Source of the DNA: Branchiostoma floridae
Lineage: Eukaryota; Chordata; Leptocardii; Amphioxiformes; Branchiostomatidae
DNA: 64,000 bases
Assembly (NCBI RefSeq): GCF_000003815.2
Contig: NC_049994.1
Location: 6,780,666 to 6,844,665 of the forward strand
Direction of reading: 5' to 3'
The notes under the pieces: generated by a model
Told to the model about the DNA's origin: nothing
The model's database searches: none
What the model saw: only the letters and a program-made list of their open reading frames with translations
Part shown: piece by piece, positions 29,037-62,965 of the stretch
How the letters are laid out: every line of letters begins with the position of its first letter
How positions within the stretch are numbered: position 1 is the stretch's first letter
Position numbers and translations under genes: made by a program

Positions 29037-29112
29037 ATGGCTGGTTTACATGGCTGGTTTAAGGTGTTCATCCTTGTGGTATTCTTCGCCTACTTGACTA
29101 GTGCCCAACAAG
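29037..29112 (+). CDS. Exon 1: signal peptide
   Basis: [20 protein letters not shown] followed by TSAQQ, then donor CAAG|GTAAGG in phase 1. It has a hydrophobic core and small residues before a plausible cleavage site (TSA|QQ). The open frame extends upstream without a nearer in-frame ATG, so 29037 is the natural start. The 5.7-kb intron that follows contains an antisense LINE remnant and an N gap that could hide a further exon. Confidence 0.75.
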
Positions 29113-32100
29113 GTAAGGGACTTCACGATTTTTACCGAGGGGTGTGGGGTGGATTTTTCTCAGGACGTCCCTTGCGACGGCTTGCGCCTTAGTCTAGCTT
29201 TTGTTGGAATCCGCAGATCTTTGCGTCGCATGCGTACACAGTGATTTGAGTTTTGATGGACATTGATAATATATTTTCTATTGCAAGTTCATGCCCGAGT
29301 GCTAATTGTAGGTACAAAAAAACACGTATGATAAAGAAAGTACAAAGGTGCAGCTGCTAAGAACTACATTCAATGACTATGCCTATGTTGTGCTACTTAG
29401 GTGTACATTATACTAGTTTTGTTGGGATTGACTTCTTCTTTTTAGGCAGTGGAAGACGATTACCCACTTCGTCTATAATATGTGGGTTCTTTGTATTAAT
29501 AGGATTGATTTCTCATTGTCAGGGATAGTTGGAAAGTAAGCGTGTATATTGAATACACTCATAAATAGTTGGTTTCTTATATCACCATAAAGAGAATAAT
29601 TAGAGACAAAATGACTCACGTCTTCCACAGCATTTGAGGAACAACATTTACAAAATTCTCTCAGACACAGGTACCTTCATATATCTCCCCTTTTCTATTT
29701 CAAGGGGTGGGCACTAATTCTAATCTTACGGGGTAGCGGAACGCTACTCAAAATGACAAAGTTCGAGATATTTCTATATACTATGTTTGGTTTTACATTT
29801 TCTAAAAGATCTAAGCTTGTCAGTATAGGTAGACAGATTATGGAAGAAAGTTTGAATATACAAATCTGAAAATCTTGTCCTTAATAGTTTTCATATTTGT
29901 TGAGGATCATAGTTTGTGTTATCAGAATATGATAAGTATGAATATGAGTGATCGAAGATCTCCTTAACTCGCTGTAATAATGTCCGTCTACGACTACTTG
30001 TCAGAGATGTATGTTGTGATCGGAGAGAATCAACTTGCAGTGGGTGTGTATCGGTGTCTAGTTGTGTTAAGTGTGTCCAGAATTTTACAGTGCGCAAGGA
30101 TATATCTAAATGTAACGGGAACCTTCCTAGTTCTGCTCTAGCTGCTACATTGCTACTGTTTCTGTGCACACCAAGTACATTCTTGCAAAACCGGTTATGG
30201 GAACTTTCAATTGGTGAGGTGTCATTTATAGGGTCTTTACCCCAGATTTCACATCCATACAAAAGTATTGGTTTGATACAGATGTCCAATATTCTTAGTA
30301 GGCACTTCGGAGAGACAGACGAACGGAGCAGTGATTTGAGACTGAACATGGCCTTTCGTGTTCTGAGTGAGAGCTGTTTTTGTGCAAGAGAGAAACTGCC
30401 TGATGCAGTAATATTCAAGCCCAAGTAGCAGTAGGACTGTACTATGTCTAGTATGTCTTGCCCAAAAGAGAATGTTTGTTTTGGGAATGACCGACCAGAT
30501 TTGTTGAAGATAATGACTTTTGTTTTCTTTAAATTGACTTGTAATTTCCATTTCGTACAAAAGTCGCTCAATCTATTCAGGGCAGTTTGCAGTCCTTTAT
30601 CGGAAATATAACAACATTATCTGCATAAAAGGCATGATACAAACAAGTTATGTAGAGAGGGTGGTGAGCATTCAGTATCATCAAGAACATGTACATGGTC
30701 GTTTAGGAACAGGTTAAAGAGTGTAGGACTAAGGTTACAGCCTTGCCTGACACCCTTCTCGGTTGCAAATGATGGCGTTAAACCAGACGATGTTTTGACG
30801 CATGTCTGGGGTTTTAAGTACATACATTTGATAAGCTTATAGAAATTGCCGCCCACTCCTGACTCTAACAATTTACAACGGAGACTCTCTCCAAACGGAA
30901 TCGAAGGCTTTCTTAAAGTCAACGAAACACGAATAAAGACGTTTATTATCTGAAAGATATTTGCTTAAAAGTGTTTTTATAATGAACAGGTTATCGCTCG
31001 TTCTGAATTTGCTAAAGCCGGCTTGATTGGGAGATGTAAGTTTATTTTTATCTAGGAAATTGGTGAGACGAGCGTTGATAAGAAGATAAGAAGAAGAAGA
31101 ACTTTATTGCACGGCAATTGTACATGATACAATGTATGACAACGGCTATTACACAAAGCAGAAAATAGAGGGATAACAGGATAAAGCTTAACCCTATCTA
31201 GACCGGGCTTTTTTTTATTCCTGGGGCCGGGGGAGGGGGGGGGGGGCTCTTTTGACCCCCTTTAGTTTTTTTCAGTTAGTACCTTTTTGCATAAAGGTTA
31301 TTTATGCAGAAATTTTCTATCATTTATGAAATTTTCCCCGAATTCTAGTTACCCCTTACGCTACCAGCAATTGGGAGCACTAAATAGCACCCTTCCGGGG
31401 CGGCTGCGCGAGAGATTCTACCTTTAAGGGTATATTATTTCAAAATAAGATCAATTTTGCCAGCTTGGGGGGTATATCGCTCCGATAATCACATTGTGGT
31501 GGTAGTAGTGACGCAATACATTTCATAGGTCGGAAAAGATCAANNNNNNNNNNNNNNNNNNNNNNNNNNNNNNNNNNNNNNNNNNNNNNNNNNNNNNNNN
31601 NNNNNNNNNNNNNNNNNNNNNNNNNNNNNNNNNNNNNNNNNNNCAGGATTTATTTATCATTTTTGAACAAGATATGTAAGTTTCATGGCCATAGTTCAAT
31701 TCAGCATGTTACAAAACCCAAGTATACCAAGTTTTTTCCTTGTATTATCTATGATGGCGGAGATATTGTAATCTTTCATTTTTAATCAGCTTATCCGGAA
31801 AACTCACGGCGTACCTATCAGGCCTTTGATGATCATAACTCCCTAACGGCATGACCGACTTTTTCGCAATAAAAACCATTCTGTTTCTTTTACAATGACC
31901 TATCCAATGATGGCTGTGAAGAGTTTGAATTTTTTGTGTATTTTGAGACAGCTACATTGACCTTGAAAATTGACCAACAAATAGCAATATTTGAAGGCAA
32001 AGTATGTTATATTTCAAAAATAGTACATATCTACTAACATTGATGGTTATCTTTTGGAAAGAAATCTTGCTCAGACATACCTCCTGACTACCTTAACAAC

Positions 32101-35100
32101 GTAGTTAACATAACAATAAGGGCTAACATAATCCATTGATATAGTATTACAATGGAGTAGGCTAACCATGAGTTTCGGTATTTTTTCTAATAGCAGAGCA
32201 GTCTTCGATATCGATACATTTGCCTATTTTTGCATTATGGGAGTTCTGACATCTAAAATATATACAAATCAGGGACACCTCCATGGGTCCCACGTTTTCA
32301 AAAGCAACCCCTGCCAGACTCCGTTTTCATTTAAAACAGGATATATCAATTTTTCATGTCTCGTGGCCCGACCGGATATACTTTATATGCCACGAATGTG
32401 TGTGTGTCGTTTTGGTGGTGACTAATGTGTGTCAACGATATCGATTGCTCCATATTCAACCCTAATCAGGGGGGGGGGGGGTGGGTCTGGGGCTTTTGAG
32501 GCCTGCGCCAACTTCGATGTCCTATAACGCCAGAACGCCTTACCCTAAAGCCACCAAATTTAGTGAGTTTTCCTAAAATATTGTTGGCAACAGTTTTACG
32601 AAGTTTGACAAATTTTCCATTTTTTCGTGTTACCATGGCAACCGTTTGCTGACAGGCAGTTTTGCCGAAAATCACTATTTTTGGTTCTAACAATGTATTC
32701 TCACATTTATTTGCTATATTACTGCTATTTTGTTACATGAATAAAATCTTATATTATTTAGCATATCTTTCATAATTATATATGCATAGATTATGCTAAT
32801 TTGATGACGTCATCAGCCCAACATCCAAGATGGCGGACCGTATAGCCAGATCAAGAATAACAAGCTAATTATCCCTTACAATTTGTAATTACCTGGTATT
32901 TTTTAATCAAAAACCAGCTAAATGAATGAATTTAGTCTATTTCCGTTGCCCTTTGTGATTATTTGTTGCCAAAAAACTATTTTTTTAAATTCAAGAAAGT
33001 GGATATAATATGGCGGAAACTAACTCGTATCTTAGATGTGCATTACGTCATTTTATGACGCCATTATGACGTCATAGATGTTGCTATTGGCAATTCAAGT
33101 GCTAATAAACATTATCATTCTGTTATCTGCACTTGTTACATTTTTGTAGTATAACTTGAAGTTTTCTGAGAATACCCTTTTTTCATGGGTCCGGCCAATA
33201 TAATCAAATTGATGACGTCATAATTACGTCATCTTACGTCAAAATAACGTCAAACGTCAAAAACCTGTTAGATATTATGTCGATATCATGTCCTAAATAT
33301 TTGGTGGCCCTACGGCACGTCGTTCAAGAGTTAGTGGACTTAGAAGTGGAGGGCCTCAAAAGCTTAGTTTTGCTGCCGCCAAGTTTGGAATATGTGACAT
33401 GTAACAGTGCTGCTGGCGTTATTATTGGTGACCTTGAATATCACAACACTTGTTTACGGCGGTATCAATTACTCCATGTCCCTATCAGTGCGACTCGACA
33501 TAAGGCCAAACATGGTATTTAAATCGCTTACAAAACGCGTGCAAATCAACTCTTTAAGAATAAAATGGTCGACAACTAATATCTCCAGGTTTGTGTCTTA
33601 GGGATTTTTAGAATATGGAGGCAATTTTGACTTACGAGTTTTTGAGTGTGAAAAACATGATTTTTCGACCTTATCTTGGCTGTAAAAATAGTTCAAAACA
33701 AGTTCAAAAATCCCTAAGACAGAAAGTTTGATCTTACAATCATTACTCATATGATATAAAAGATTTTGATTTTCAGTCAGATTTAGGACCGATCTAAACA
33801 TGGTATTTGTTATTTGTGCACCAAACACCCTTTCTGAATCAACCAACTATGCATTTTTCAGAAAACTTTGAAACGAAACTGTGCAGCACACGTACACGGT
33901 AAGATTTGACGTGTACACACTGCCAATTCTCATTTAATCTCGACTAGATACGTGTGAGAGGTTGCTTTTCTAACTATCACGATCTTGTAGAAGATGTTTC
34001 AGTCACCGTCAGCCCTCCGCGGGGACCGCGCGGGAGCCCCGGTAACCCGATACTCCACGTTCGAATGAAAACTTTTGGGCCAAATTTTACCGTGGTTAAT
34101 ATAAGACATATTTACGTTTAGTTAAGATACCTTTTTTGCATTTTGCGACTTGCAGTCGCAAAATGCCTTCTGGCCAGTGTAGTCGCCGTTGTGATGTTGT
34201 GATGTTGAGATGAACGGACCTGTTCAATCCATGCCAAACATTTGTATACCTGTTAAAACTGGCATTTCTTCAACATGTTCGCACTAGCGCAGTGGTAAAG
34301 TTTACGCATTCTAAACCAATGCACCCGGTTCGAATCCGGGGAGGTAGTTTTTTTCAACTTTTTTTTTCTTTTTTACATCCATTCAAATACTAACTTTTAC
34401 ATCCATTTGGCCACACCAATTTATTTCTTTGGTTAACGGATTCGCCGCTTCGTTTTTTTTGCCGAATAGAAATAAAAATTAAAAAAAAAAAAAACTTAAA
34501 AATGCCCCGCAACAGAGCTCACTCAAAAACAGGCAATGTGTAGTGAAATTTGCAGCAGTTCACGCAAATTTTAACAGGTGGCGTCTAGATCTGCTGCAGT
34601 TCAGGCACATATGTGAATCTCTCCATGCGCCAATATCAGGTTTAGTTACTCTGTTCTATTTATATGACATTCTAATAACTAGAAAAAAAACGTTCACACA
34701 CGCAAACATTGGCAAAATGCCAGCTTTTTTTAAAAGCACTTGTTTGATACGAAATATTGACAGAGAAATGATGACATACGTTATACTTGTCCAGGTTGGC
34801 TGGTACGGGATCCGTCGTGGGTTGTGGACTCCGCCGGCACACCGCGGGTACACAACGGGGTGACGTATGATGCCGCAAAGGCCTTGGATGGAGACACTGG
34901 GACCTACTGGAACCCTGGGGGTATGGGTCAGAACTACAACAACTGGTACATTGTACTGAACCTCCCAGCGCCCCATACTATCACTCGCGTCGCTGTTAAC
35001 AACTACGGAGACACCACCCATGACACTGCAGCCTTCACGCTGCAAAAGTCGCAGGTTGGGAGTCCGTACAACTGGGAGGACGTCGTGACCGTTACTACCG

Positions 35101-38100
35101 TGCAGGGAGGGACGGACGAGCGGCAGGAGTTCGGCGGGTTCCAGGGAACAGCTCAGTATTGGAGGTTCCTAATTACCGAGACCCACTCGGGCTGGCAGCC
35201 ATGGCTCACAGAGCTGGACCTCTACGAAGGTAAAGGAAAAATCGTCTTGTTTTATAAGCTATAGAAATATGGATACAAGGAAGGTTCAAAGTAAATGGTT
35301 ACTAAAGGGTAACATTGATTTGAATTAAGTTAAATCATTAAGTAGTTCGCACAGCAGTAGCCAAACTTCACGTTTGCCTGTCGCTCAGCGCTTTTGCAGT
35401 CGGCGCTCAGTGGTCACCCAACGGTCGCTCAGTGATCGCTAAGTTGTCCACTTTAATTTTACACTGATCAACTATATCCAAGAGGTCTCACTTATTCAAT
35501 TATGCAATACGTGTCGGACGTGGCCACCCCAAAACATACGGACAAATTGCACGTGCGGCGGGATGTGCCCTTAGCTTAAAGTAGACCCTGTCCGCTCTAC
35601 CCAACTTGTGTGTTCGACATGACAAGCTAGGCGTATCATTACCCCACGTTTTCCTTTTTAAACATGTTGAAAATCAAGACAGCGTGTGTTCGTACTGTGT
35701 TGTTAAATTCCATCCACCAGGAGATTGCCAGGTTGGAGATGGAGCATCCTACCGAGGAATAGTCAATGTGACGGAAACAGGCAAGACGTGTCAGCGCTGG
35801 GACAGTCAGACACCTCATGAACACAGCATGACACCTACCGATTACCCGGGATTGGGACTGGATCAGAACTACTGCCGGAACCCGGAAGAGGAATCCGGAG
35901 TCTGGTGCTTCACCACGGACCCCGGCACCAGATGGGAGTATTGTGACGTACCAGTCTGCGGTAAGGTCTGATTATGTAACCTTAAAACCCTTAAACTGCC
36001 AAGCCCGGATATATCCGGCACACACATACATGCCCTGTGTGCCGCACCCGGATATATCCGGCATAGCGTATTCCCCCAAAGTAGCAGCTTTTCGCGCGTG
36101 TAGAGCACGAACCCCGGAAGTTAGGAACTTGTTCGGGGGTTTCTTTTTGGAGGTTAGCGGCCAACCCTGATACTGAAAATATGGCAGTTTAATGATTGAT
36201 TCTGTGTTATGATCTTCTTCAATCTGTAATAACTACATTGGCTCCTCAACTTTCAAATGCTTTCCTACACATCAGTCGATCAAGAACATTTGATGACTAG
36301 TTAACGATACCGTGGTATGGCATGATTGTGACAGAAGATCAATTAGTGTGAACCAGTCAGAATTGCCCTGAAGAAGGTGACAGACGAAACATCGGTAAGA
36401 ATAAAGCATTAGTTGTGTAAAAAGAGTCTCTATATTCGGTAGTTGTCAATGTCGCACTGAGGAAGCCGGCGTTCCAAACCAGTACCGGTTGGGATGGGGT
36501 CGCCAGCCGGGCCGTGGACGGGATCACCGCTACCGACTGGAAGTCTGGATCCTGCACACACACTGTAGGTGACGGGGAGGATCATGCAGCCTGGTGGGTG
36601 GATCTCGGACAAGCGTATGCGGTTGATAGGTAGGGATTTATGCATGTATGGTCATCTGTCGGTCATTAGAGTAAAGATGCAAAACTGATTAAGTCACACA
36701 AAAGTGCAGACCCGCACAAACAAACACAGAAAAACCTGTGCTACCTCTGTATACGGACCTCCTGGTCATTCTTGCCTCTTTTCAATGGTCCCCAGATTCT
36801 TTTTTTTCCTATTTGATTCAAGCATCAACAATTCTGTCTATAGCAGCCAATGGTTTTTTCTTAAAGTCCCTTGAGTGTTCGATATAGACAGGTTGGACTA
36901 AATATCACTGTGTTTGCGTTTGTGTACGTATGATTATTAGCATCAAGCATTTAGAACATATAGCTATATTTTGTTTTCCTGATTTCTAGGATGATTCGAG
37001 AGGATGAGTCAAGATTCAAGTCACAAAATCCCTAGCAATGATAGTGACTATGGATCTATCAATCTTTACACACATTATGTGATGTTTATACTTTTTATAC
37101 GAACGTTCATCCGAACATTTGTATAAAACCTATTGCTCTTCCGGAAATAATGCGATCAGATCATATGACATACAAGATTTCTTTTACACAACCAGTTTAT
37201 CTCACCTGCTGACGTTTCGATGTCTGTCAGACATCTTCCTCAGAGCTTATAACTGGAGTTATAGGTGCGTCAATAGGTGAGAAAGACTGGTTGTGTAAAA
37301 GAAAACTCCAACAGATTGTCTAAAATATCTACAGAGTGGTCATAGTCAACCGCCAGGATTGCTGTCGTGATCGGCTCAACCCCTTCAACATCCACATCGG
37401 GAACTCCGACCAGGTCAGCGCGAACCCCCAGTGTGGAGGCGACCATCACATCAACGTGACCCAGCCGTCAATTTCCGTCTCCTGTCCGGGGATGCGGGGG
37501 CGCTATGTGGCCGTCCGTCTGCCTGGACCATCAAGAATACTGGCCCTGTGCGAAGTCCGGATATTGTCGGGTAAGTCTGCACTACATTTACTTCACATGT
37601 ACCAAGTCCTGGCTTATATAGCTATACAAATGAATGCTGACGTTATTCTTATGACCAGCTAGTAGACCTCCAAAAAACTACATTCCTGTTAAAATCACAG
37701 AACCCACTAATCCTTAAAAACGTGTGAGTCATGTAGAATCACGATATAGCTGTATAATAGACATAGAATAGACACTTTTTTACTGTCTGTACCCTTTCAA
37801 TTAGCCTACTGGCATGAATTTGCAAATAAATAGATAAAAAAATAAATAGATTATTCGCTTATAAGTTATGTGCAAGCGACTCTGTTATCTATGACTCCTA
37901 ACCGCCAATATCACGTCCCTTCAGTCCCCCCAATTGTGGAGGGTGTGAATGTCGCACTGGAGAGGCCGGCGTTTCAGACCAGCAATTATGGCGGCGGCGA
38001 CGGGGCTGCCAGCAATGCCGTAGACGGCAACACCGATCCCAACTTTAACCACGGCTTCTGCACACACACCGCGGGGGGTCTGAGGGAGGATAACCCCGCA

Positions 38101-46677: not shown

Positions 46678-46731
<54 letters not shown>

Positions 46732-49700
46732 GAAACTCACTACCGGTTACAATAAATGTCATAGTTCTGATGTAACTTTCGTCGCTCAGATTCGCCATGC
46801 ATCAATTAGTACATTTATACATTACTAGTGTTTGGCCATTTCTCTTTCCCAGTTTGCTACCATGGCAGTGGCATGAATTACCGCGGTACAGCATCCAGGG
46901 CAGATTGTGTGGAGTGGTCAAGGGTGTCGGTAGTCATTTTTGTTATGTTAGTGAACGCTTACCCCTGGGCTAATCTGGACAGCAACTATTGCCGGAACCC
47001 TTATGGGGTCGAGCAGCCATTTTGTATGGTGGATGGCGGAGACGGATACGGAGACTATTACACGGCGCCATGTGATGACATCATGCCTTGCAGTAAGTTG
47101 TATTTCCAAGATGGAATAACTTTCCTGGACCATATTTCCATGTCACTCGAACCATATTCCCAAGGTTACTCGGACCATATTCCCATGTCACTCGGACTAT
47201 GTTCCCAAGGTCACTCCGGACCATATTCCCAAGGTCACCCGGACTATATTCCCAAGATCACTCGGACCATATTCCCAAGGTCACTCGGACCATATTCCCA
47301 AGGTCACTAGGACCATATTCCCAAGGTTAATCGGTCCATCTTCCCATAAAGTCACTAGGACCATATTCCCAAGATCACTAGGACCGTATCGCCTAGGTCA
47401 CACGGACCATATTCCCAAGATCACTAGGACCATATTCCCAAGGTTACTCGGACCATATTCCCAAGGTCACTAGGACCATATTCCCAAAGTCACTAGGACC
47501 GTATCGCCGAAGTCACACGGACCATATTCCCAAGGTCCTTCGGACCATATTCCCAAGGTCATTCGGACCATATTCCCAAGGTCACTTGAACGCATTTCCC
47601 AGGTTTTCGGACATGTATGAATGAAAACTTGTCAAGAGTCTTGGTCTGTATCTTTATCTATATCTAAGCCTGTATAACCGCCCTTCGGCGTAACACACCA
47701 GCTTTTTTTATTACCTCCATGAAATGTCATGGAGGTTATATTGTACCCAGCGTTTGTCTGTCTGTCTGTGTGTGTGTGTGTGTGTGTGTAAACAAGATAA
47801 CTCAAGAACGGCTGGATGGATTGGTTTCATACTTGGTGTGTTGGTGTGATGAAAGCTGAAAATGATTATATTTTGGGCCACCTAGCGGCTCCCCTTGGTA
47901 CTGCAGCGCAACTTCCGGTTTTGCTATCTCGGTGTTCTGAACATGCTATGGTCACGCTTTTGAGTAATAGATAGCTCTTGTGTTCAGGAAAAAATGACAT
48001 AACTTTGGGCCCCCTAGCGTCTAGTTTTGGGATAGCAGGGGCATTTTTGTCAAAAACTTCTGAAGACGATAACTCAAGAAGGGAACAACAGATTTGCATG
48101 ATTTTTTATATGTAAGTACCTTAGACAATGTTGTACAAGATAAAATACTTATTATGCAAAATAGGAATACATTTGCATAATCAATGAGAACATTCTATCA
48201 TAGCAGTTTTTTCAATGTATCTCTTGTCCCGGACGTGATATGGTCGAGACATTTGGGTGGTAGATAGCTCTTAGCGTCATGACAAAGTGGAGCAAGTTTC
48301 ATACCCCTAACATTTAATTGTGAAACTGCAGGGGTGTTTTTGTCAAGACACTCCAAAGAGGATAACTGCAGAAAGGAACGACGGATTGCCTGCATTTTAG
48401 GTATGCTGTTACCTTGGGCAAAGATGTTCATAATGATATGCATCTTATGCAAATGAGGGCTTAATTTGCATAATTAATGAGGAAATTGTATAATTCTATT
48501 GTTTGCAATAACTGTACTTCAATAAATGTAACACTTGTTAATTATGATAGGTGGAATATAAGCAGATACCAAATATGGTAATGAGGAACTTATTTGCATA
48601 ATTTATGTAAAAATTGCAAAACCGCTTTATGATTAATAATGGGAATTTTATAATTGTGACATGTGTACGTTAGTCAATGATGAACAACACCATGCATAAA
48701 TTATGTTAATGTGTTAATCAATTGCATGAAATTTACGAAAGCTCTAAATTTTCATGGAGGTATGAGGTCGCCGAACTCTAGTTGCAACATATATTTACAA
48801 GACATGGTGACGGCACACTCAAGTCATGACTTATATTCATGCCGCCACCGCAAAAGAATACAAATACATGGATAAATAAATACAAGATAAGAAAACAACA
48901 TAACATTACAAAATAACAAGTAAGCAAAGCACTGAAGCAAAAACAACAAATGAAGATTGAAAGATATAAACTGAGGATATGATGATTAACTAAGTCCCTT
49001 AAGACTGGAAAATGATGTTTAGTCATTATTGAAGCCATTGGTATCTATTAAGAAAGTCTGCACAAACATTAATATTTTGGGGTTTTCTGCAGGGGACAGA
49101 AAAAAAATCATTTTAGGAGCAACTGTACTAAAATGTCGTCGGATAGATTGTCCAAATCAAAACCTACCAGTCTTTTCAAATTGCCGAAGAGGAAAGATCT
49201 CTGTTGAGTGTAGTTAGGACAGTGTAGCATAAAGTGACAAATGCTTTCGTATGGGTTACCACAAGAACAAGCTAGAATAACAACAAGATTACGGGTGAAC
49301 AAACTTTTATTTAAACTAGGGGTTCCAAGACGTGTGAGTAAAGCGCAGGGGTAACGGGGACCTAATGCGAAGTAAGAAACAAGGACGAGGCGCACAGATT
49401 TGGTCAATTTTTTTCTGAACAGAGGAAGGCTCAAGGATCGGCCAGAGTCAGTTTATTCCATTGATAAGTAGCGTAGGGAATAAAAGATCTTTTGAAACGA
49501 TCTGTAGCATATAGGTATCTGAATATTTTGTTTGATGCGTGGATCGTAATGAGTGGAGTCTAACACAAAAGATGGTATCAACTCTCTCAAATACGGACGG
49601 GTGAGACCTTGGATAATTTTGTAGAATAAAATAAGAGAGTGAACATGTCTACGGTCTGATAGTTTTCCCATCCAAGTTCTTTAAGAAAAAATAATTATGA

Positions 49701-52700
49701 AGACCCTCTGATAGCACCAGATACAACAAGTGAACATTCGTATTGAATGTGTTCTATCAGTTGTGAGTCGGGGATAGTGCAACCATGCCATATAACGTCT
49801 CCATATTCAAGTGTAGGGCGAATAAAAGATTTGTAGATAATTTCCAGAACATTATGAGATAACTTGAATTTAAGTTTATTTAAAATAGATAACTTTTCTG
49901 ATGCATTGACTAGCATCTGCACAATATGGGGGTTCCATGACAAGTTTGACGAAAGGTGGACTCCGATATGTTTGTTGCCTTTGACAGATTTAATTACTTC
50001 GGTTCCAAGAAAAAGAGGAGGATGAGAAGGGAGATTTGATTTTCTGGAATAACCAATCTCAACAGTTTTCGAGTGGTTGAGTTCCATTAGCCATAAATTC
50101 ATCCATGACAATTTTTTTAGAAAGATCAGAGTTAAGTCTGGCAGCTGATGAAGAGGGACTTTCAACAACGTCAAACAATGAGCTGTCATCGGCGAAAAGG
50201 AAAGGATGTGTTACAAGTCCGTCAACCATATCATTAATATAAACGAGAAATAAAAGGGGCCCTAACACAGATCCCTGGGTAACACCTGCGATTATTTCAC
50301 ACCAATTTGAGCATTGACCATCAATTATGACTCGTTGTATTCTACCGTGTAAATGACTCTGAAACCAGTTAAGAATTGGCCCTACCACCCCGTTTCGTTG
50401 AAGCTTGAATATCAATCCTTGATGCCAGACTTTATCAAAAGCTTTTAATTAAAAAAGTCGAAATATACAGCTCTGACTTCATTATTTGAGTCGAGTGATT
50501 GACAAATTTTGTTGGAGATATAGTCCAGTTGACTAAAGGTTGAATCCCCACGAATGAATCCTGACTGGAAAGAGTATAATAAGTTTTGAGACAACAAACG
50601 ATTATACAAATGTTTATATATTATCTTTTCAAGAATTTTGGATAAAGAGGGTAATAACAAAACAGGGCGGTAGTTGGACAATACACGTAGGTCACTTTTT
50701 TTAAAATTTGCACAACATTTGCCCGTTTCCAAGCTTCAGGAAAAATGCCGTGGCAAAGTGACAAATCAAACACATACGCAATTTTATCAGAAATAAATTT
50801 AAAAGGGGAAATAATTTTTTTTTAAATGATTATCAATATTATCCCACCCATATGCTTTGGAAATGTCAAGTTCAGAAATGTACCATTTGACCTCAGTAGC
50901 TGAGGTTACACAATCAAACAGACGAACATCAGTCAAATAATCAAAGTGCGGTAGGCAGACATTAGTGTCGTCAATTGTTGACTAGAGAGGAAAGTATTTG
51001 TTTTGTATTTGCTTCTGTATCAGTATCTATATAGCCGGTATAACCGCCCTTCGGCGAAACACACTAGCTTCTGTATCTGTATTTCTGTCTATATAGCCGG
51101 TATAACCGCCCTTCGGCGTAACACACCAGCTTCTGTATCTGTATCTTTATAGCCGGTATGACCGCCCTTCGGCGTAACACACCAGCTTCTGTATCTGTAT
51201 CTATATGGCCGGTATAACCGCCCTTCGGCGTAACACACAAGCTTCTGTATCTGTATCTTTATAGCCGGTATGACCGCCCTTCGGCGTAACACACCAGCTT
51301 CTGTATCTGTATCTATATAGCCGGTATAACCGCCCTTCGGCGTAACACACCACCTTCTGTATCTGTATCTATATAACCGCCCTTCGGTGTAACACACCAG
51401 CTTCTGTATCTATGTCTATATAGCCAGTATAACCGCCCTTTGGCGTAACGCACGAGCTTCTATATCTGTATCCGTAAAGCCGGTATAACCACCCTTCGAT
51501 GTAACACACCAACTTTGCAGGCACGCGGCGCGGCAGCAGCTGGTCGTATTACACTGAACAACCCGTCACACCCAACATCTGCTCATCGTCTCTCATCTAT
51601 GCTGAAAATAAAGCATGATGATTTCTATTTCATTTAGAAGGCGTTTGCTTGGACATGGGTTCTCCAAGATTCGGCAGTAGAAGCCCTGTCAAGAGGTTCT
51701 ACCGCGTGGGAGAAAAGGTCACGTACACCTGCGACGAAGGGTACACTCTGGACTCCAGACATACCAGCAGAGTCAGGTGCCTCCAGGGGGGCATCTGGCA
51801 ATATGACAAGCCCAGCTGTTCAGGTGAATGTGAAAGATTTGTCGGCCTGAACAATTCTGCATGTTCTACAAAGATGTGCACAGTAAAGTTAGCGCTTAGA
51901 GGAAGTTTGAACGTGTCGCATGAACATTTGGTATGTTTTCTTCAAGGCAGTTGTATCACTTTCTACATGATCAATGTATTTGTCCGAGCCGAGATGAGAG
52001 CAAAAATACGATATCATTATTATGTGAAGAAGAATCTCTATTTGTCAGCTATAAAAGAAACGTTTGCCACAGTTATTAAACAGAAACATTTTCTGTTTCT
52101 TTCTGGATATAATAACTAATCAGTTCTGTCTACATGCACAACACATTTAAATACCTCTAAATCATATTACGCATAAAACACTTTTGTTTTACATCGTATT
52201 TACGTGTGCCCAAAGGTCCACTCTTTTAAAGTCAGATATGTCTTTCAGCTACCTTAGTTTGCTAAATTATAAAATCTGCTTAGATGTCTCTTCTCGTTTT
52301 ACAAATGTAGAAGTATTTCGACAACTTTGCCTACATAACTGTTTTGTGCTGTGACTTACCTCATCTAATATTCCAAACATCTTGGCACTAAATTCGATCT
52401 TCATTTTATGCGTCTTAATAATACCCCTGTCACATTATCCACGATCTTTGGGCGTATCGATGGAAGATCGGCCATATTTAGATCGACAGAGGTTTGCGCG
52501 TATTTTTCACCTGAAAACCGTCAATGTCACATATAAGCCATACTTTGTACCTTGTACAATTGTTGTGCAAGAAGTTATTATTATAGGCGAGGCTCGAGCG
52601 ATTGCCGCAGAATCGTCGTCCGGTCGATTTTCGCCAAATGTGACAGGGGTATAACCATGTGTATGCACTATCCCCCTCCTTAGTGGACATCAAAGGTACG

Positions 52701-55700
52701 CTGCAAGATGACCTGCTCTACGGGTACAGTCCCAACCAGGCGCCTGATGCTGACACAGCAATCACCTTCAGTGGCACTGTGGAACAGATCACCGACCTGG
52801 TAAGCTTTAGTATCTGTTATATATGTGAGATTCTTCTAGATCTATTTATAGACAGTACACAGAGATAACAGAATTTAAGTAATTGATGTTGTAACTTTTA
52901 CTTTTCAGGACGAAAAGAAGGAGCTTCTTGTAGCCACTTTAGTCATCGAATTCGTAAGTAGACGCAGTTATAGCACATTCAGGCTCTTTGAAAAAAAATA
53001 TTCCATTTTGTCGATTTGCATTTCGCGACTTTTCCACAAAGTGACACAATATTCAGAAAATTAAATTGTTTGCCAGACCTGGCAGGACAGCCGGCTGACG
53101 TGGTGGCCAGAGTACTACGGGAACATCCAGACCCTCATCGTGCGGGATAACAGCATCTGGACACCTACATTTACTCTGAAGAGGAAGTATGTGATGGTCT
53201 TTTAGTAAACTATCATCATATCATCAACATCACATCATGTTAAATATGTTTTTGATATGATAAATGGTATGTGTGCGTGTGTTTGTGTTTATGTGTCTGT
53301 GTACATGCGTGTGTGGAGAAGTCTGTTGACCGTCTTCCAGAACGAAATCAGCCATGTTATTAGAAATAGTATGATGTTTTGTTTGTTACCCCACAGTGCC
53401 GATGGTAAGTACCAAGGCTTGCAAAAGGGCGTACCGATCCTGATCAGACCCGATGGTACTGTAACATGGAGGGTGGAGACTCTCACAAGCACCATCTGCG
53501 ATGCAAAGCCTTTCTTCTTCCCTGCTGACACCATGGAATGCCACATCTGTTTCTCTGTGTCCTCTGCAATTGAACAAACCATAGGTAAGGTGCTGTGAAT
53601 ATGCCACGAATTGATTTTATTTCATTTGTGTTTATTTGAGTGGAATAAAGATTTCCATTAATTTATTTCAGGTTAGGCCGCTTCCAGTAAACTTGGGAAA
53701 CATGTATTGTTGTATCCTAAAGATTGTACTTGTAGAAATGACACTAGGGAGGAACCATATCTGTAGTTCTGGAAGTGAAACTAGTTTGATAGTTGTAAAA
53801 GTGGCACCAATATGGAAGCCATGAAGGTAGTTGGCAACTTTGCACGTGATAGTCTACCGCACTAGTGCCAATTTTACTACACTAGTTCACTTCTTGAACA
53901 CTGGAATAAAAACGTCATTCATTCCAATTTTTTCGACCTAACTCATTATTTTGCAGAGGATGTCAATGATGCAATTTGCTTACTGCGGCCAAAGATTAGA
54001 ATATCCGAGACAAAGAAAACTAATCATGCCAGGACACATCTCTCATTGACAATCATTTTTGTAATGATTTGTGAAACACAGAATGCGGAGGGGGCAGTAC
54101 CTGTGACGTCTGGTCTCCCCCACAACAGGAGGGCGAATGGAATCGGAAGGACAAGATCTTCGCAGAAGGCAACAAGAAGGCGTGCTTCGCTGTTCATCTA
54201 GAGAGGATCCCGCTGTTCCACATCGCCACGACCGTTGGGCCCTGCGTCATCCTGGTGGTGCTGATGACCATCACCTTTATCATGCCCATAGACAGGGGAG
54301 ACCGGATCTCCTTCGGAGTGACCATCCTGCTCTCCATGGTCGTGTCTCTCGTGTTTGTCACGGAGGTACTTCCTGTGAAAGGGGCGCTGCCGTTTTTCGG
54401 TGAGGACAGAAAATTGTCATATTCTTATTTTTGCCCATATCTACACGACGAAGGGGTCACCCACACGTCTTAAGATAGAATAAACAAATAGATACATAGA
54501 CCGATTTTCTTTAGCTCCTTAGTTACCTGAATGGACTTCGGGAAGGTGGGGAATGTAATGAACCCTATCCAGACCGGGCTTTTGGGGGATACCTGGGACG
54601 GGGGGGGGGGGGCTCTTTTGACCCCCCCCTTCGTAATTTCAAAACGGCTTAGGTTACGATCACCAAATTTGGAAGGGATGATGTACTAGTTTTATATATT
54701 CGGTAAGTTTGGTATCGTTATGACGTAATATGACGTAATTATGACGTCATAATGTCATTTTAGGCTAAAATCGTCTACATATGAAATTTCCGCTATACTT
54801 AAAGGAATTCAAGAAAACGCTGACTATTAAGGTTATCGTATTGGTGTCTAAGTCTGCCAAAACTTTTGTTGCCAATAACGACGACACTGACGCCAATATG
54901 ACGTCAGAAAATGACGTCATTTGTCCGTCATCTTGGATGGACAAGCTTGAATTTTCTAAAATACGATTTTTTCCACATATAACCCCTAAACCCAATGGAA
55001 GTGGACTAAAAAGGTTCAAATGATTGTGTTTTGTAAGAAAATGAAATATCTTGACGGAATTTGAGTAAAAATAAGATGTATTAATCGTTAAAAATGGCAT
55101 TGTCCGCCATCTTGGATTTTGACCCATGACGTCACCAAATTAGCATAAATTATGAATAATTAATTAGAAATGTAACTTAAAATTACACAGGATCTTAATG
55201 ATATAGATAAACAAGTTTGGTTTAGCAATAAAGCTATGAAATCCCATAATTCAAACTGAAATTAGTAAATTTTGTAAAATATGCCTGTCAGTAACCCGTT
55301 GCCATGGCAACACGAAAAATAATACACTAAAATCTTTTCCGTAGAATTGTTGCAAACAATATTTTAGGAAAGGTCACCAAGTTTCGTAGTCCTAGCACAC
55401 GTCGTCCGGCACTTATCCGACGTCAAAGTTGGCGCAGGCACTTTTAGTCCCCCCCCCCGACGGGAATTTATGGTTAACGTAATAACGTTTTTTTTTAAAT
55501 TCAAGAACCTTTAAGTTATTTTTCAATGACCAATCAGATAAAGCCATTCAGAGAACATTCGGGTATCTGTTAATTGAAAAGTGTAGGAGTCCTATCCGGT
55601 GTAAGTGGATTTGTAGCTTATGCTCTTCAGTGCAAACCTGGCAAAGACGTAAGATGTTTTACCTGTTATGTACTGAAACAAAACAAATGCCATGATTCAT

Positions 55701-56844
55701 ATTACAGCCACGCTTATCGTCGTCTGCATGGGGCTGATGGGACTTTTCCTGTTCTTCACCATGTACATCATCAGCCTCCACGACAAGGAGGGGAGTCTGT
55801 CACCAATGGCCAAAACTTTCTTTCTCCACTACATGGCAAAGTATGTTCTACTCGTTACAACACAAAGGTTTTAGACTGCAAAGACCAAATGAAATAATGC
55901 GAATTGCGTACATTGAGGCATTCTTGTTTCTATAAAAGCACAGGTATCATCAGAAAAATTGCAAATCTCTTATCCTCGAAAACATTCAAAATATCTCACT
56001 TTAGTTTAATGTAGCAGGTTGAAGCAGCCCAAACCAGCACCTAAGTGAATTTCCGTGGAAGATTTCATAGCGGATTTAGAAAGTGTTTTGTTGAATAACA
56101 GTGGTCACATTTTGTAATGATCTGAACGCTAGATCATAGAAATTGAGATAAACATTGCTTAGAAGCTTCCACATCGTCATCTTTCCTTCTTGCTGATGTT
56201 TGATAAGGTTCCTGCTGCTCGGAGACCTCACAGAGAAGGAGGCTGGCCCGACCGGCGGGAAGCTGGCCTGGCCTGAGCGGGCCAACCGCGTGGTCCGTGC
56301 AGATGACGTGGCCAAGGTCGACGGAGAGGAGACCACAGACAATGTCTACGAAGACGTGGCGGAGACCGACGGGAAGAACCCGACCGATGTCTTCGATGGT
56401 ATGATAAAGGTCGAGGTCGAGAGCCAAGCTCAAATCTCCGATGCCGTAGAGAAGGTCGACGGAGAGACCCCAGCTGATGTCTCCGGTACAACAGGCGACA
56501 TCCCTGCCGAAGCCGTGGCGGAGACCGACGTAGAGACCCCCGCCGCTGTCTCCGGGACACCCCGCCAGCCGTCCGGCCCGCCCACCCGCCTGGAGGCCGC
56601 CGTGGAAGAGCAGACCTCTTGCCTGCGTGACCTGATTACCATCTTTCAGGAGCAGGCGGTGAAGTCTGAGGAGAAGGCGGAGGAGGTGATCCACAGCCTG
56701 GAGGAGCTGGCCAAGGCGGTGAAGGGCGATCAGGAAGTGTCCGATTACACCCTGCTGACCAAGGTCCTGGACAGGCTGTGCCTTGTCCTGTACGTCATCA
56801 GCGTTGCTGTGGCCGTGCCCATTTCCATGTATCTGGGCAAGTAA
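29037..56844 (+). CDS. Chimeric Cys-loop ligand-gated ion channel with lectin/kringle/LDLa/Frizzled/sushi ectodomain
   Basis: Nineteen exons: 29037-29112, 34795-35229, 35721-35960, 36443-36629, 37335-37570, 37925-38138, 42050-42285, 42592-42705, 44060-44279, 46062-46213, 46853-47092, 51638-51823, 52684-52799, 52909-52953, 53077-53186, 53397-53584, 54082-54399, 55708-55840, 56208-56844. All junctions are GT/AG with matching phases; total 4083 nt, 1360 residues plus TAA. Order: signal peptide 1-25, F5/8C-like 26-170, kringle 171-250, F-type lectins 251-391 and 392-541, LDLa 542-579, Frizzled CRD 580-703, kringle 704-783, sushi 784-845, Cys-loop receptor LBD 846-1042, M1-M4 1043-1357. The C-terminal ~515 residues are a full pentameric-channel subunit; the pore-lining M2 suggests cation conduction. 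The N-terminal modules would project from the membrane surface and may bind glycans, Wnt-like or matrix ligands (inference). The phase agreement argues for one transcript, but this is unconfirmed; internal promoters or two genes remain possible. Confidence 0.82.
29890..31080 (-). mobile_element. Non-LTR retrotransposon (LINE) reverse-transcriptase remnant
   Basis: Minus-strand frames, separated by frameshifts, give RT landmarks: [43 protein letters not shown], then the C-terminal [17 protein letters not shown] and [12 protein letters not shown]. The catalytic YADD is YADN and the frame is broken at least twice. A dead, 5'-truncated copy antisense in intron 1 of the channel gene. Confidence 0.85.
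31198..31543 (+). mobile_element. piggyBac-like MITE, 5' part (copy d1)
   Basis: TTAA-CCCTATCTAGACCGGGC, G-run and CTCTTTTGACCCCC, then the N gap. The subfamily resembles the copy at 54.6 kb; the right end is not recognised. Confidence 0.6.
31544..31643. other. Assembly gap (Ns)
   Basis: Exactly 100 N, a conventional unknown-size scaffold gap. Confidence 1.
31644..32457. other. Intron 1, no exon seen
   Basis: Frames present lack acceptor/donor context. Confidence 0.4.
32458..33364 (-). mobile_element. piggyBac-like MITE, reverse orientation, truncated (copy d2)
   Basis: Begins with the family 3' end (AACCCTAATCAG plus G-run) and runs back through GTTACCATGGCAAC near 32630 and multiple TGACGTCA or near-CRE sites to the 5' GAGGGCCTCAAAAGC segment, where the 5' terminal repeat is missing. 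Confidence 0.8.
33365..34794. other. End of intron 1
   Basis: No exon recognised. 34135-34240 resembles 14575-14640 (a TTGCGACTTGCAG-CACAAAATGCC segment), a low-copy dispersed repeat. A tRNA-like segment lies at about 34283-34350. Confidence 0.45.
34283..34350 (+). repeat. tRNA-like segment, probably tRNA pseudogene or SINE head
   Basis: TAGCGCAGTGGTAAAG resembles a pol III A box and CCGGTTCGAATCCGG a B box/T-arm with a good stem. The middle GCATT-CTAAACC-AATGC could be an anticodon arm. The acceptor ends do not pair, and a T-run follows. Confidence 0.5.
34795..35229 (+). CDS. Exon 2: F5/8 type C-like (galactose-binding-fold) domain
   Basis: A 1-1 phase exon, 145 residues, with hallmarks [71 protein letters not shown]. 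This is the discoidin/F5/8C jelly-roll family, usually carbohydrate or phospholipid binding. It lacks the long-range Cys pair common in discoidins. Confidence 0.8.
35721..35960 (+). CDS. Exon 3: kringle domain 1
   Basis: A 1-1 phase exon with all six kringle cysteines and the landmarks [47 protein letters not shown]. The fold is intact. Kringles mediate protein-protein contacts in proteases and in ROR/Kremen-type receptors. Confidence 0.92.
35985..36192 (+). mobile_element. ~200-bp TIR MITE in intron 3
   Basis: Ends TTAAACTGCCA and TGGCAGTTTAA are inverted. The interior has two GGATATATCCGG palindromes. Confidence 0.7.
36443..37570 (+). CDS. Exons 4-5: F-type (fucose-binding) lectin domain 1
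   Basis: Exon 36443-36629 ([33 protein letters not shown]) joins exon 37335-37570 across a phase-2 intron. The second exon carries RQDCCRDR, matching the R-x-D-x4-R part of the F-type lectin fucose-binding motif, then [16 protein letters not shown] and LCEVRI. A His lies 28 residues before the motif, a little further than the canonical spacing. Fucosylated glycan binding is a family expectation, not shown. Confidence 0.85.
37165..37310. repeat. Fold-back repeat in intron 4
   Basis: Arms TTTTACACAACCAGT and ACTGGTTGTGTAAAA flank a GTTTCGATGTCTGTCAGACA core. It ends about 25 bases before exon 5. Confidence 0.8.
37925..42285 (+). CDS. Exons 6-7: F-type (fucose-binding) lectin domain 2
   Basis: Exon 37925-38138 ([37 protein letters not shown]) joins exon 42050-42285 at the same phase-2 position as domain 1. 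The latter again has RQDCCRDR, then [16 protein letters not shown]. The two domains are near-duplicates, pointing to an exon-pair duplication inside the gene. The 3.9-kb intron holds a LINE fragment, a CA repeat and a MITE. Confidence 0.85.
38430..38765 (-). mobile_element. LINE 3'-end fragment
   Basis: A minus-strand frame contains [20 protein letters not shown] followed by CP-Y, the C-x2-3-C...H...C pattern at the C-terminus of several LINE ORF2 proteins. It ends at GACAATGACAATG simple repeats. Confidence 0.65.
38877..39340 (+). repeat. CA/CACGCA-rich microsatellite
   Basis: Long runs of ACACACAAACGCGCG type. Open frames across it on both strands (Cys/Val/Arg- or Thr/His-rich) are low-complexity artefacts. 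Confidence 0.97.
39742..41936 (+). mobile_element. piggyBac-like MITE split by a nested insertion (copy e)
   Basis: Left part 39742-40446 starts TTAA-CCCTATTCAGACC. The right part resumes at about 41693 (AAATGTGAAAAATACATTG) and ends GTCTGAATAGGG-TTAA. The RFX-type palindrome is at 41758-41771. The intervening 1.25 kb is another repeat. Confidence 0.85.
40447..41692 (+). mobile_element. Element nested in MITE copy e
   Basis: It interrupts the uninterrupted family sequence between AATATAGC and AAATGTGAAA. Its ends, CTAGAGTTCATCGAACACAT with TTCGCCAA and CTTGGCGAAGCTA, are partly inverted and match the termini of the element at 44.5-45.9 kb. No coding frame. Confidence 0.65.
42592..42705 (+). 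CDS. Exon 8: LDL-receptor class A repeat
   Basis: A 1-1 phase exon with six cysteines and the signature [17 protein letters not shown], including the acidic Ca2+-binding cluster. Confidence 0.92.
42940..43275 (+). mobile_element. tRNA-derived SINE with reiterated A-box
   Basis: B box GAGTTCGAACTC and TGCCGTGCCACC, then the SINE body (GTGCCCTTGGGAAAGGCAC, CACGACTTTCCTCAGGTG). Upstream, the A-box-like TGGCGCAGCGG is repeated about five times in tandem. In intron 8. Confidence 0.75.
43335..43495. repeat. Fold-back repeat in intron 8
   Basis: Arms ATGACTGTTTTTGTAAGG and CCTTACAAAAACAGTCAT flank a GACGAAGATGTGCTGTTAGA core. Confidence 0.85.
44060..46213 (+). CDS. Exons 9-10: Frizzled-type cysteine-rich domain (Cys-poor)
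   Basis: Exon 44060-44279 gives [32 protein letters not shown]. Exon 46062-46213 gives [26 protein letters not shown]. The phase-2 junction is exact (AG|G). The PN-LG, FP-C and PCRSxCEEV landmarks are Frizzled CRD features, but only about six of the usual ten cysteines are present, so the fold or its Wnt/lipid binding may be altered. The exon 9 acceptor (TTGTAAG) has a weak pyrimidine tract. Confidence 0.7.
44535..45940 (+). repeat. Dispersed element with internal ~250-300-bp tandem units
   Basis: It begins with a CTTTGCCAGAATGGC and GTGTCTGTGTG tract, then repeated units around TGTTGACGGATCGTCATGAT (44903, 45200, 45450; degenerate at 45685) and AATTTGCAT motifs. It ends GCAAAGTTATGTGTTCGTGG then AACTCTAG. 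Lies in intron 9. Confidence 0.75.
46677..46728. repeat. (TA)n microsatellite
   Basis: About 25 TA units in intron 10. Confidence 0.95.
46853..47092 (+). CDS. Exon 11: kringle domain 2, ROR-like
   Basis: A 1-1 phase exon with six cysteines: [36 protein letters not shown]. The opening CY-GSGM-YRGTAS closely recalls the kringle of ROR receptor kinases, where a kringle also directly follows a Frizzled CRD. The segment [14 protein letters not shown] replaces the usual polar loop after the second Cys. Confidence 0.85.
47125..47605 (+). repeat. ~23-bp minisatellite in intron 11
   Basis: About 20 copies of a unit like CCATATTCCCAAGGTCACTC-GGA, starting about 30 bases after the kringle 2 exon. Confidence 0.95.
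47704..48785 (+). repeat. Dispersed element with CCTCCATGAAA / TTTCATGGAGG ends
   Basis: Starts ATTACCTCCATGAAATG and ends TTTTCATGGAGGTATGAGG then AACTCTAG. The interior has a GTCTGTCTGTGTGTGTG tract, AACTCAAGAACGGCTGGAT and several ATTTGCATAA motifs, related to the element at 44.5 kb. Confidence 0.75.
49050..50830 (-). mobile_element. Non-LTR retrotransposon (Jockey/CR1-like RT) remnant
   Basis: Minus-strand pieces in order: [70 protein letters not shown] (catalytic ADD kept), [16 protein letters not shown], a C-terminal region and [20 protein letters not shown]. At least four frame breaks make it non-functional. Antisense in intron 11. Confidence 0.9.
50995..51545 (+). repeat. ~56-bp minisatellite
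   Basis: About nine units of GCTTCTGTATCTGTATCT, ATAGCCGGTATAACCGCCC, TTCGGCGTAACACACCA. It ends in GCAGGCACGCGGCGCGGCAG and CAGCTGGT, the same flank as the smaller array at 26105-26290. A single-unit relic is at 47645-47702. Confidence 0.95.
51638..51823 (+). CDS. Exon 12: sushi/CCP domain
   Basis: A 1-1 phase exon with four cysteines and the sushi pattern: [35 protein letters not shown]. It is the last module before the channel. Confidence 0.92.
52425..52656 (+). mobile_element. ~230-bp TIR MITE just upstream of exon 13
   Basis: Ends ATACCCCTGTCACAT and ATGTGACAGGGGTAT are a perfect inverted repeat. The interior is rich in GATCG. It ends 27 bases before exon 13 begins, so it abuts or provides part of the branch-point region. 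Confidence 0.85.
52684..53584 (+). CDS. Exons 13-16: Cys-loop receptor ligand-binding domain
   Basis: Exons of 116, 45, 110 and 188 nt. The 45- and 110-nt exons have the sizes of nicotinic receptor exons 3 and 4, and encode [15 protein letters not shown] and [14 protein letters not shown]...WTP. Exon 16 has NADGKY and the Cys-loop itself, C970 and C984 separated by 13 residues with FFPAD. The aromatic-box positions look lost: loop A Tyr is Lys (WTPTFTLK) and the loop B Trp region reads FSVSSA. Acetylcholine is therefore an unlikely agonist (inference). Confidence 0.92.
54082..55840 (+). CDS. Exons 17-18: pre-M1, M1, M2 and M3 of the channel
   Basis: Loop C ([18 protein letters not shown]) is short and has no vicinal Cys pair. 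M1 is about 1043-1067 with a GPCVILVVL core. M2 follows as [20 protein letters not shown] then VTEVLP: Asp at -1', Ser 2', Thr 6', Leu 9', Val 13', Glu 20', matching cation-selective nicotinic-type pores rather than the PAR start of anion channels. M3 (1105-1129) is in exon 18, followed by a nicotinic-like FFLHYMAK. Intron 17 holds a MITE. Confidence 0.92.
54559..55477 (+). mobile_element. piggyBac-like MITE, copy f (intron 17)
   Basis: AACCCTATCCAGACCGGGC at the left; C-run and TTTATGGTTAA at the right, diverged. Several TGACGTCA or near-CRE motifs are present, and GTTGCCATGGCAAC lies at 55298-55311. Confidence 0.75.
56208..56844 (+). CDS. Exon 19: M3-M4 cytoplasmic loop and M4
   Basis: A large GC-rich terminal exon. 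The loop (about 1149-1330) is acidic and contains degenerate repeats built on [11 protein letters not shown] and [12 protein letters not shown], then a Glu/Lys-rich helical stretch ([20 protein letters not shown]) like the MA helix that precedes M4. M4 is [20 protein letters not shown], and the protein ends GK-TAA, so the C-terminus is extracellular and very short. Confidence 0.9.
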
Positions 56845-62787: not shown

Positions 62788-62819
62788 CTGAAAAAGAGGA
62801 ATGAAGCTTGAAACCATCG

Positions 62820-62965
62820 TGTGTTGCGTAACTGGTAGAACGTTCGGCTCAGAATCTATAGGTCCTGAGTTCGATCCCCGCCGTGCCCCCAACGTTGTGC
62901 CCTTCCTCACTTCACCCAGGTGTAAACATGGATACCTGACTTCGGTCAGGGAGGTAAAAGACTAC
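62820..62965 (+). mobile_element. tRNA-derived SINE
   Basis: An A-box-like GTAACTGGTAGAACG and B box GAGTTCGATCCC are followed by GCCGTGCCCCC, TTGTGCCCTT and CACCCAGGTGTAAA, the same family as the SINE at 43 kb. Confidence 0.75.

Follow-up and report, generated by a model that had tools for sequence, protein, structure and literature searches.

A lancelet Cys-loop channel subunit gene with a multi-module adhesion/lectin ectodomain, and a family of related genes with differing heads

In a window of 64,000 nucleotides (the whole stretch of Branchiostoma floridae DNA analysed here), nineteen plus-strand exons appear to encode one channel subunit with a multi-module adhesion/lectin ectodomain. 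This single-subunit structure is strongly supported, because the same parts are linked at dozens of paralogous places. The gene appears to belong to a large family with exchanged heads, and this is a stronger point than the single gene. We consider it probable that this is one gene for a Cys-loop subunit of a stalked family, in which a glycan-binding variable head anchors or clusters a cation channel. The architecture, linkage, splice phases, differing heads, kept motifs and signs of purifying selection described below were all read from genomic sequence.

The first-pass annotation had proposed nineteen plus-strand exons with GT/AG borders, compatible phases, 4083 nt and one stop, and rebuilding the channel gene reproduced this model exactly. 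The 19 exons span 29037-56844 (+), all are GT-AG with compatible phases, and the coding sum of 4083 nt is a multiple of three with a single terminal stop, giving 1360 residues. The exons are listed below (LBD, ligand-binding domain; Fz, Frizzled module; M1-M4, transmembrane helices).

29037-29112 (+): exon 1, start codon and signal peptide (25 aa), ending in phase 1
34795-35229 (+): exon 2, F5/8 type C-like (discoidin/galactose-binding) domain, phase 1-1; PF22633 45.9 bits, PF00754 43.4 bits
35721-35960 (+): exon 3, kringle 1, six Cys, phase 1-1; PF00051, best stretch 173-250 of the protein
36443-36629 (+): exon 4, F-type lectin 1, first half; PF22633 68 bits with exon 5; FBP32, 1k12
37335-37570 (+): exon 5, F-type lectin 1, second half, RxDCCxxR motif; Pfam and PDB matches
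37925-38138 (+): exon 6, F-type lectin 2, first half; PDB match
42050-42285 (+): exon 7, F-type lectin 2, second half, RxDCCxxR motif; PDB match
42592-42705 (+): exon 8, LDLa module, six Cys; PF00057 at cut-off
44060-44279 (+): exon 9, Frizzled CRD, first half; PF01392 26.3 bits, cut-off 32.1
46062-46213 (+): exon 10, Frizzled CRD, second half
46853-47092 (+): exon 11, kringle 2, six Cys, phase 1-1; PF00051 49.5 bits
51638-51823 (+): exon 12, sushi/CCP module, four Cys, phase 1-1; PF00084 41.4 bits
52684-52799 (+): exon 13, LBD start (LBD1), entered in phase 1, no in-frame Met upstream
52909-52953 (+): exon 14, LBD, 45 nt
53077-53186 (+): exon 15, LBD, 110 nt
53397-53584 (+): exon 16, LBD with Cys-loop (C-13-C, FPAD); PF02931 98 bits over the LBD
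54082-54399 (+): exon 17, LBD end, M1 and pore helix M2 (GDR at -2' to 0', E at 20')
55708-55840 (+): exon 18, M3
56208-56844 (+): exon 19, M3-M4 cytoplasmic loop, M4 and stop codon; PF02932 65.5 bits over M1-M4

All eight ectodomain modules start and end in phase 1, and the 45- and 110-nt LBD exons are of sizes standard in nAChR genes. The first three introns are described as common to all vertebrate nAChR genes in a section of PMC6354393 that does not give sizes. Scored with a frequency table, the donors of the model had a median at the 98.9th percentile of the 3842 GT sites in the window, and the acceptors at the 91.4th percentile of the 3429 AG sites. Weak acceptors were those of the first Fz exon (42nd percentile), the M1-M2 exon (60th), LBD3 (72nd) and the M4 exon (75th); at the first of these, AG stands at the homologous position in 10 of 11 paralogues. 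The GC content of the exons was higher than that of their flanks in 18 of 19 cases and equal in the remaining one. Small additional exons may lie inside the two longest introns; a tblastn search of the gene against the window gave one weak match (E 0.08) outside its own exons.

A 100-N assembly gap at 31544-31643 lies within intron 1, across which exon 1 is joined. The doubt that this casts on exon 1 is removed by a gap-free paralogous stretch (L004), in which exon 1 and the F5/8C exon recur 3.3 kb apart with 96% and 95% identity; with this stretch included, two near paralogues have a counterpart of exon 1 upstream of the F5/8C exon (92% and 96% identical). Exons at 11.6-14.6 kb were considered as the true 5' end and rejected, as they offer only a PAN match below cut-off and the two near paralogues keep the same signal-peptide exon before F5/8C. 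The stretch at 11595-14633 (+), possibly a separate gene, contains a 330-aa ORF together with three exons, one hydrophobic, one made of repeats and one PAN-like (18.4 bits, cut-off 21.4); an ORF at 1253-2086 (-) is apparently related to it. Elsewhere in the window, a PAN domain exon above cut-off (25.3 bits) lies at 62447-62848 (-), and the introns of the channel gene hold reverse-transcriptase-like ORFs at 29891-30616 (-) (15.4 bits, below cut-off) and 50059-50448 (-) (39.7 bits, above cut-off).

The ectodomain had been annotated as eight modules, and those backed by Pfam or PDB stood, the Fz module being the one that fell below the Pfam cut-off. The F5/8C-type Pfam match appeared in three stretches (the first module and both F-type lectins), and the translation further gave Kringle twice, Ldl_recept_a exactly at cut-off and Sushi, with full Cys numbers (six in each kringle and in LDLa, four in sushi). 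For Fz, PF01392 scored 26.3 against 32.1 bits, with E 1.1e-5 when run alone. A Frizzled CRD has ten Cys in five pairs; six are present in the translation, and the divergent loci L013-L015 have one more. The six would make up three of the five pairs and the absent four the other two, a pattern that may reflect paired loss rather than chance. The lectin pair found its best PDB matches in FBP32 (E 8e-54) and the 1k12 lectin (E 1e-22), and RxDCCxxR, which we take to be the His/Arg fucose-contact motif of F-type lectins, is kept and aligned in both copies. From such motifs, the lectin heads are predicted to bind sugars. The two lectins differ from each other by dN 0.15 and dS 0.61, and an identical 17-nt stretch ahead of both second-exon acceptors (37318-37334 and 42033-42049; 0.01 expected in the window) is a trace of their tandem duplication. 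The earlier suggestion that carbohydrate- or morphogen-binding modules gate or anchor the channel is plausible. The sugar-site motifs fit carbohydrate, while the Fz module is divergent and at most a putative morphogen binder.

A complete channel subunit had been predicted after the ectodomain, and this was borne out. Run alone, Neur_chan_LBD (PF02931) scored 98 bits (cut-off 26) and Neur_chan_memb (PF02932) 65.5 bits (cut-off 28.1), and all four transmembrane helices are present, as indicated by an alpha-7 alignment through M3 and by the latter Pfam match (1050-1349), which extends to M4. The best PDB matches of the channel part were nAChR alpha-7, beta and alpha-4 (E about 1e-29). The window gene has a 13-residue Cys-loop with FPxD, and the same pattern occurs in the LBD4 exons of all 14 paralogues that we retrieved. 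M2 carries GDR, with the acid at -1', in 13/13 aligned M1-M2 rows, and position 20' is Glu or Asp in 10 rows and Gly in three, the Gly belonging to the divergent members L013-L015. A cation-selective pore has an acidic -1' residue and no Pro insertion before M2, and the window gene agrees with this rule. The subunit would be expected to assemble into pentamers and conduct ions.

The acetylcholine site is a different matter. In alpha-7 its aromatic residues are Y93, W149, Y188, Y195 and W55; the alignment places Lys at Y93, Ser at W149 and Val at W55 in the window gene, and loop C is about ten residues shorter. The vicinal Cys pair of loop C is absent from the window gene and from the other 12 of the 13 aligned rows, and two other Cys, one invariant and one nearly so, flank the loop C region in the 13 aligned M1-M2 exons. 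In the paralogue exons, placed by eye, the Y93 position was never Tyr and the W149 position never Trp in 14/14 (one Phe at W149). Because the aromatic residues are replaced, loop C is shortened and the Cys pair is missing, acetylcholine binding of the usual kind is unlikely for the window subunit. These are the defining features of the acetylcholine site, and we therefore class the protein as a Cys-loop receptor variant, not as an acetylcholine receptor.

Comparison with three near paralogues gave dN/dS values of 0.25-0.39 for the lectin heads, 0.31-0.44 for the stalk, 0.07-0.25 for the LBD, 0-0.12 for M1-M3 and 0.40-0.65 for the last exon, with identities of 81-87% in the lectin exons, 86-87% for the heads, 96-100% in M1-M3 and 76-94% in the last exon. 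Against two distant paralogues the values were 0.48 and 0.44 for the stalk, 0.31 twice for the LBD, 0.34 and 0.19 for M1-M3, and 1.14 and 1.51 for the last exon, which is thus either loosely constrained or misaligned. The heads and the cytoplasmic loop diverge most, and both ectodomain and channel appear to be under purifying selection. In two near paralogues, dS was 0.21-0.30 in the lectin exons against 0.04-0.09 in the channel exons, and some lectin copies may be mispaired, so that dating by dS is unsafe.

These values bear on two further readings. One is that the channel fold passes few ions or none and serves only to present lectins on a pentameric stand, in keeping with the lost agonist-contact residues and the loose evolution of the last exon; we regard it as improbable, since M1-M3 is the most conserved part against the three near paralogues and the -1' Asp is kept in every aligned row. 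The other is a pseudogene or decaying copy. The several weak splice acceptors and the repeats and reverse-transcriptase pieces in the introns would suit it, whereas the reading frame is open through 4083 nt, the kringles, LDLa and sushi have the expected Cys numbers, and dN/dS is well below 1, which makes this highly improbable.

A more direct challenge is that two neighbouring genes were wrongly joined, a secreted multi-module lectin gene and a channel gene with a missed first exon. Fused gene predictions are a known source of error, as a passage of PMC3927609 notes; kringle 2 and sushi lie 4.5 kb apart with tandem arrays between them, and the phases of a single junction would match by chance in about 1/3 of cases. 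The arrays occupy 47127-47601 (period 23, 20.6 copies) and 51011-51515 (period 112, 4.5 copies, also readable as period 56). Separate transcripts starting between 47 and 52.7 kb with a signal peptide of their own had been named as the outcome that would speak for two genes, and such a start was looked for. A strict scan for signal-peptide exons ending in phase 1 found none in the stretches between 31.6 and 52.7 kb, and exon 1 was the only strict candidate in those scanned between 28 kb and 52.7 kb; elsewhere, the same scan gave two candidates on the plus strand, where a further 33.7 kb were covered, and none on the minus strand over its 64 kb. Under loose settings, the single phase-1 candidate between kringle 2 and LBD1 was a TG-repeat peptide, another candidate fell inside a lectin 1 exon, and the kringle 2-sushi interval held two phase-0 candidates and one phase-2 candidate, whose phases make direct joining to LBD1 impossible. 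Upstream of the LBD1, sushi and kringle 2 exons, the reading frame back to the nearest stop likewise contained no Met. These start-codon and signal-peptide scans are only suggestive of one gene, and the paralogues are more telling.

Twenty fetched stretches represented 14 paralogous genes and one sushi-only stretch. Wherever matched, the order LDLa, Fz, kringle, sushi, LBD, M1-M2, M3, M4 was the same in 14/14 paralogues; in L014 the first Fz exon was unmatched and the stretch ends after M1-M2, and LBD1 was unmatched in several. Three of them (L013-L015) are divergent, with about 35-62% identity by exon; L013 gave separate Pfam hits above cut-off for LDLa, kringle and sushi, and L014 for kringle and sushi, the M1-M2 exon of L014 being a Pfam hit of its own as well. 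Core exon borders from LDLa to M4 carried AG or GT at the homologous position in 233 of 270 cases, against about 17 expected at 1 in 16, a sum that omits the signal-peptide, F5/8C, kringle 1 and lectin rows and includes a few foreign copies (L018 kringle, L020 sushi). The sushi donor is GT in 14/14 paralogues, and LBD1, found in eight of them, has AG in phase 1 each time, with sushi-LBD1 introns of 98-845 bp. None of these eight introns contained a signal-peptide candidate. In L009 the intron is 98 bp long and holds no ATG, and the joined reading continues through it, so that a channel start inside this intron is excluded; across the family such a start is unlikely.

The linkage was then counted across the genome (513 Mb, 431 contigs). 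The channel query gave 104 matches, of which the 56 covering M1-M2 were used and compared with the matches of an Fz-kringle-sushi query; 42 of these places were preceded, at no more than 30 kb on the same strand, by stalk exons in the same order, and 14 had none among the matches listed. A wider count, with a divergent query for each half and a sushi-LBD query, and with at least 60 bits required for a family place, raised the family to at least 63 related channel places. Among the matches listed, a kringle lay upstream at 60/63, a sushi at 59/63 and either at 62/63, and kringle, sushi and channel followed one another on one strand at 57/63; kringle or sushi was missing at six places, and both at C4:18898467. 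As controls we took the 150 listed Pfam channel matches less one that lies within 15 kb of a family place, and none of the resulting 149 had a family kringle or sushi match within 30 kb upstream among the matches listed; at 50 kb, one control had a kringle match, 35 kb away.

Places below the threshold varied. A kringle or sushi stood upstream of C2:17518486, C2:9613017 and C6:15632486, the first two of which were left out of the family with scores no better than those of other receptors, and five other low-scoring places that were checked had neither upstream. Seven family places in tandem arrays (C2, C11, C230) also had kringle and sushi downstream, which by distance are those of the next family member; the narrower lists gave no downstream kringle or sushi, while at four places matches on the opposite strand came from the family member next to them. 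The small contigs C221, C230 and C256 may be second alleles. In an M1-M2 tree (32 rows, 105 columns; L033 without a row, the identical L003 and the partial L017 left out), 12 canonical rows fell on one side (68/90; 70% of bootstrap trees) and 13 family and seven intermediate rows on the other, a weak grouping with long branches that is not used as proof. Five divergent M1-M2 exons (L036-L040, on C2, C4 and C16) lie outside the main family groups of the tree; upstream of them, one has kringle and sushi, three have a kringle only and one has neither.

The two-gene reading was thus rejected on the signal-peptide and start-codon scans, the genome linkage and the intron length. The loose candidates in the interval can be counted in its favour; against it stand linkage at 57 of the 63 listed family places and at none of the 149 controls, the common module order of all 14 paralogous genes, the 98-bp intron of L009 without any ATG, the missing in-frame Met upstream of LBD1, sushi and kringle 2, and the empty strict scan, with a TG-repeat peptide as the one loose phase-1 candidate. 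We give it next to no weight. A retrocopy was also considered as proof of a spliced message and dismissed: C2:14437292 (33% identity, one stop) is the sole long match across the sushi-LBD joint, and it lies in L020, which has five sushi matches and no channel.

One gene with a stalk and a channel is the reading that we carry forward, and its heads differ from member to member. F-type lectins like those of the window gene occurred in only three of the 14 fetched paralogues. By position, among the matches listed at the at least 63 family places, the head was a C-type lectin at 17, an F-type lectin at six, an F-type lectin with F5/8C at three and F5/8C alone at five, that is, a lectin or F5/8C-like head at 31/63 and no assigned head at 32/63. 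The lectin matches were chosen by eye near family places, with one from the Pfam ORF set, within a distance limit of 20 kb (40 kb at the C3 locus). No family place had both lectin types, and none had a head within 20 kb downstream, among the matches listed.

Upstream of LDLa, 11 stretches were inspected and ten ORFs run on Pfam. Lectin_C was above cut-off (61.6-82.7 bits) in six of the ten, belonging to six family members; a sushi is added in one of these and an EGF-like module in another. One further member showed an F5/8C-like domain. Four of the six C-type lectins carry the motif EPN, one has EPD and one QPD, with WND in 4/6 and WKD or WHD in the others; EPN goes with mannose and QPD with galactose. 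LDLR class B repeats upstream of LDLa, above cut-off in L044 (32.4 bits) and below in L043 (15.0 bits), are perhaps a further kind of head. By eye, Thr/Ser-rich repeats were seen upstream of LDLa in several members, and nothing was recognised as a head in 4 kb further upstream of L013 and L015. Two other loci are unusual in arrangement. At C8:9517020-9531542 (+), a single channel is preceded by two Fz-kringle-sushi blocks, which are separated by a C-type lectin match (9522385); either the stalk is doubled here, or one block belongs to an adjacent copy for which no channel was matched. At C5:4743573-4749101 (+), exons for C-type lectin, Fz, kringle and sushi have no listed family channel match within 30 kb downstream, possibly as a channel-free relative.

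By its sequence, the protein is organised as follows. A stalk of LDLa, Frizzled CRD, kringle and sushi stands directly ahead of the LBD and the four-helix channel domain, and in the window gene this stalk bears a head of F5/8C-like domain, kringle and two F-type lectins. The subunit would form part of a pentameric cation channel; its head, on top of the LBD at the outer face, would bind glycans (fucose-type here) on cells, matrix or microbes, and the main effect would be to keep the channel in place, or gathered in clusters, at sites that bear those glycans. Gating could come from an agonist other than acetylcholine at this subunit, or from a partner subunit. The architecture may have arisen by exon shuffling, with symmetric phase 1-1 modules inserted into the signal peptide-LBD intron; this intron is phase 1 here and the modules run from phase 1 to phase 1, as exon shuffling would lead one to expect. 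According to passages of PMC4284660, exon shuffling and the formation of new domain combinations reach rates in lancelets above any others known, and phase 1-1 is favoured; the main text of that paper contains none of the terms ion channel, Neur_chan, kringle and lectin.

The head might instead do the gating, a ligand on the lectin being signalled through the stalk to open the pore, in a family for chemosensory or innate immune recognition. The acetylcholine-site residues missing from the window gene and 14/14 paralogues, the Cys pair missing from 13/13 rows, the different lectin folds with EPN, EPD or QPD, and the greater divergence of heads than of pore (81-87% against 96-100%) would accord with this. 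However, four modules separate head and LBD, such multi-module stalks more often serve adhesion, and the last exon, at 76-94%, diverges as much as the lectin exons or more, so that divergence alone does not point to the head. Glycan gating is thus unlikely in our view, and anchoring or clustering remains the preferred role. More broadly, if some sixty cation channels keep pore and stalk and differ in their heads, it is conceivable, as a tentative idea, that binding of a glycan or matrix ligand directly changes membrane current; equally tentatively, such ion channels could act as innate or chemosensory glycan receptors, with heads that perhaps include LDLR class B repeats.

Cys-loop receptors belong to the most thoroughly studied channels, and outside the membrane they normally consist of the LBD alone. 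The family, if real, would show that large additional domains can be accommodated on top of the LBD, would combine glycan recognition and ion flux in a single chain, and would offer a natural experiment on the origin of new receptors by domain shuffling. We found no description of such a lectin-headed channel family in the open-licence PMC literature (preprints being outside this scope), which suggests a previously undescribed channel family tied to sugars or cell surroundings.

Compared with known systems, the window gene is like nAChR subunits in its LBD, Cys-loop, M1-M4 and cation-type M2 motif. To our knowledge, the LBD of known Cys-loop subunits begins soon after the signal peptide, whereas the window gene has eight extracellular modules ahead of it; it also differs in lacking the vicinal Cys pair, in a loop C about ten residues shorter and in the replaced aromatic-site residues. 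Known F-type lectins of the FBP32 and 1k12 kind share the tandem pair and RxDCCxxR and are secreted, whereas the lectin pair here heads a channel. The ROR and MuSK receptors have the same Fz-kringle order and are kinases, not channels; kringle 2 matches ROR kringles in the PDB, with plasminogen kringles scoring higher. In chick MUSK, according to a passage of PMC3927609, the Fz and kinase domains have a kringle between them. Part of PMC6896357 describes nAChR genes, predicted in molluscs and other animals, that include further functional domains, and names dynamin and GAIN; these genes too carry extra domains, the two named being of other kinds, and the word sushi is absent from the main text. 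A passage of PMC4795631 states that pentameric ligand-gated ion channels (pLGICs) joined to other domains are known only at the genome level so far. Worms and flies, as passages of PMC9083331 relate, cluster acetylcholine receptors with separate sushi and CUB proteins: LEV-9 (CCP/sushi), LEV-10 (CUB, LDLa, the LDLa being dispensable for clustering), Hig and Hasp (CCP). Sushi modules thus occur in receptor-clustering proteins as they do in the window gene, but LEV-9, LEV-10, Hig and Hasp are separate proteins, whereas here modules of these kinds lie within the channel chain itself.
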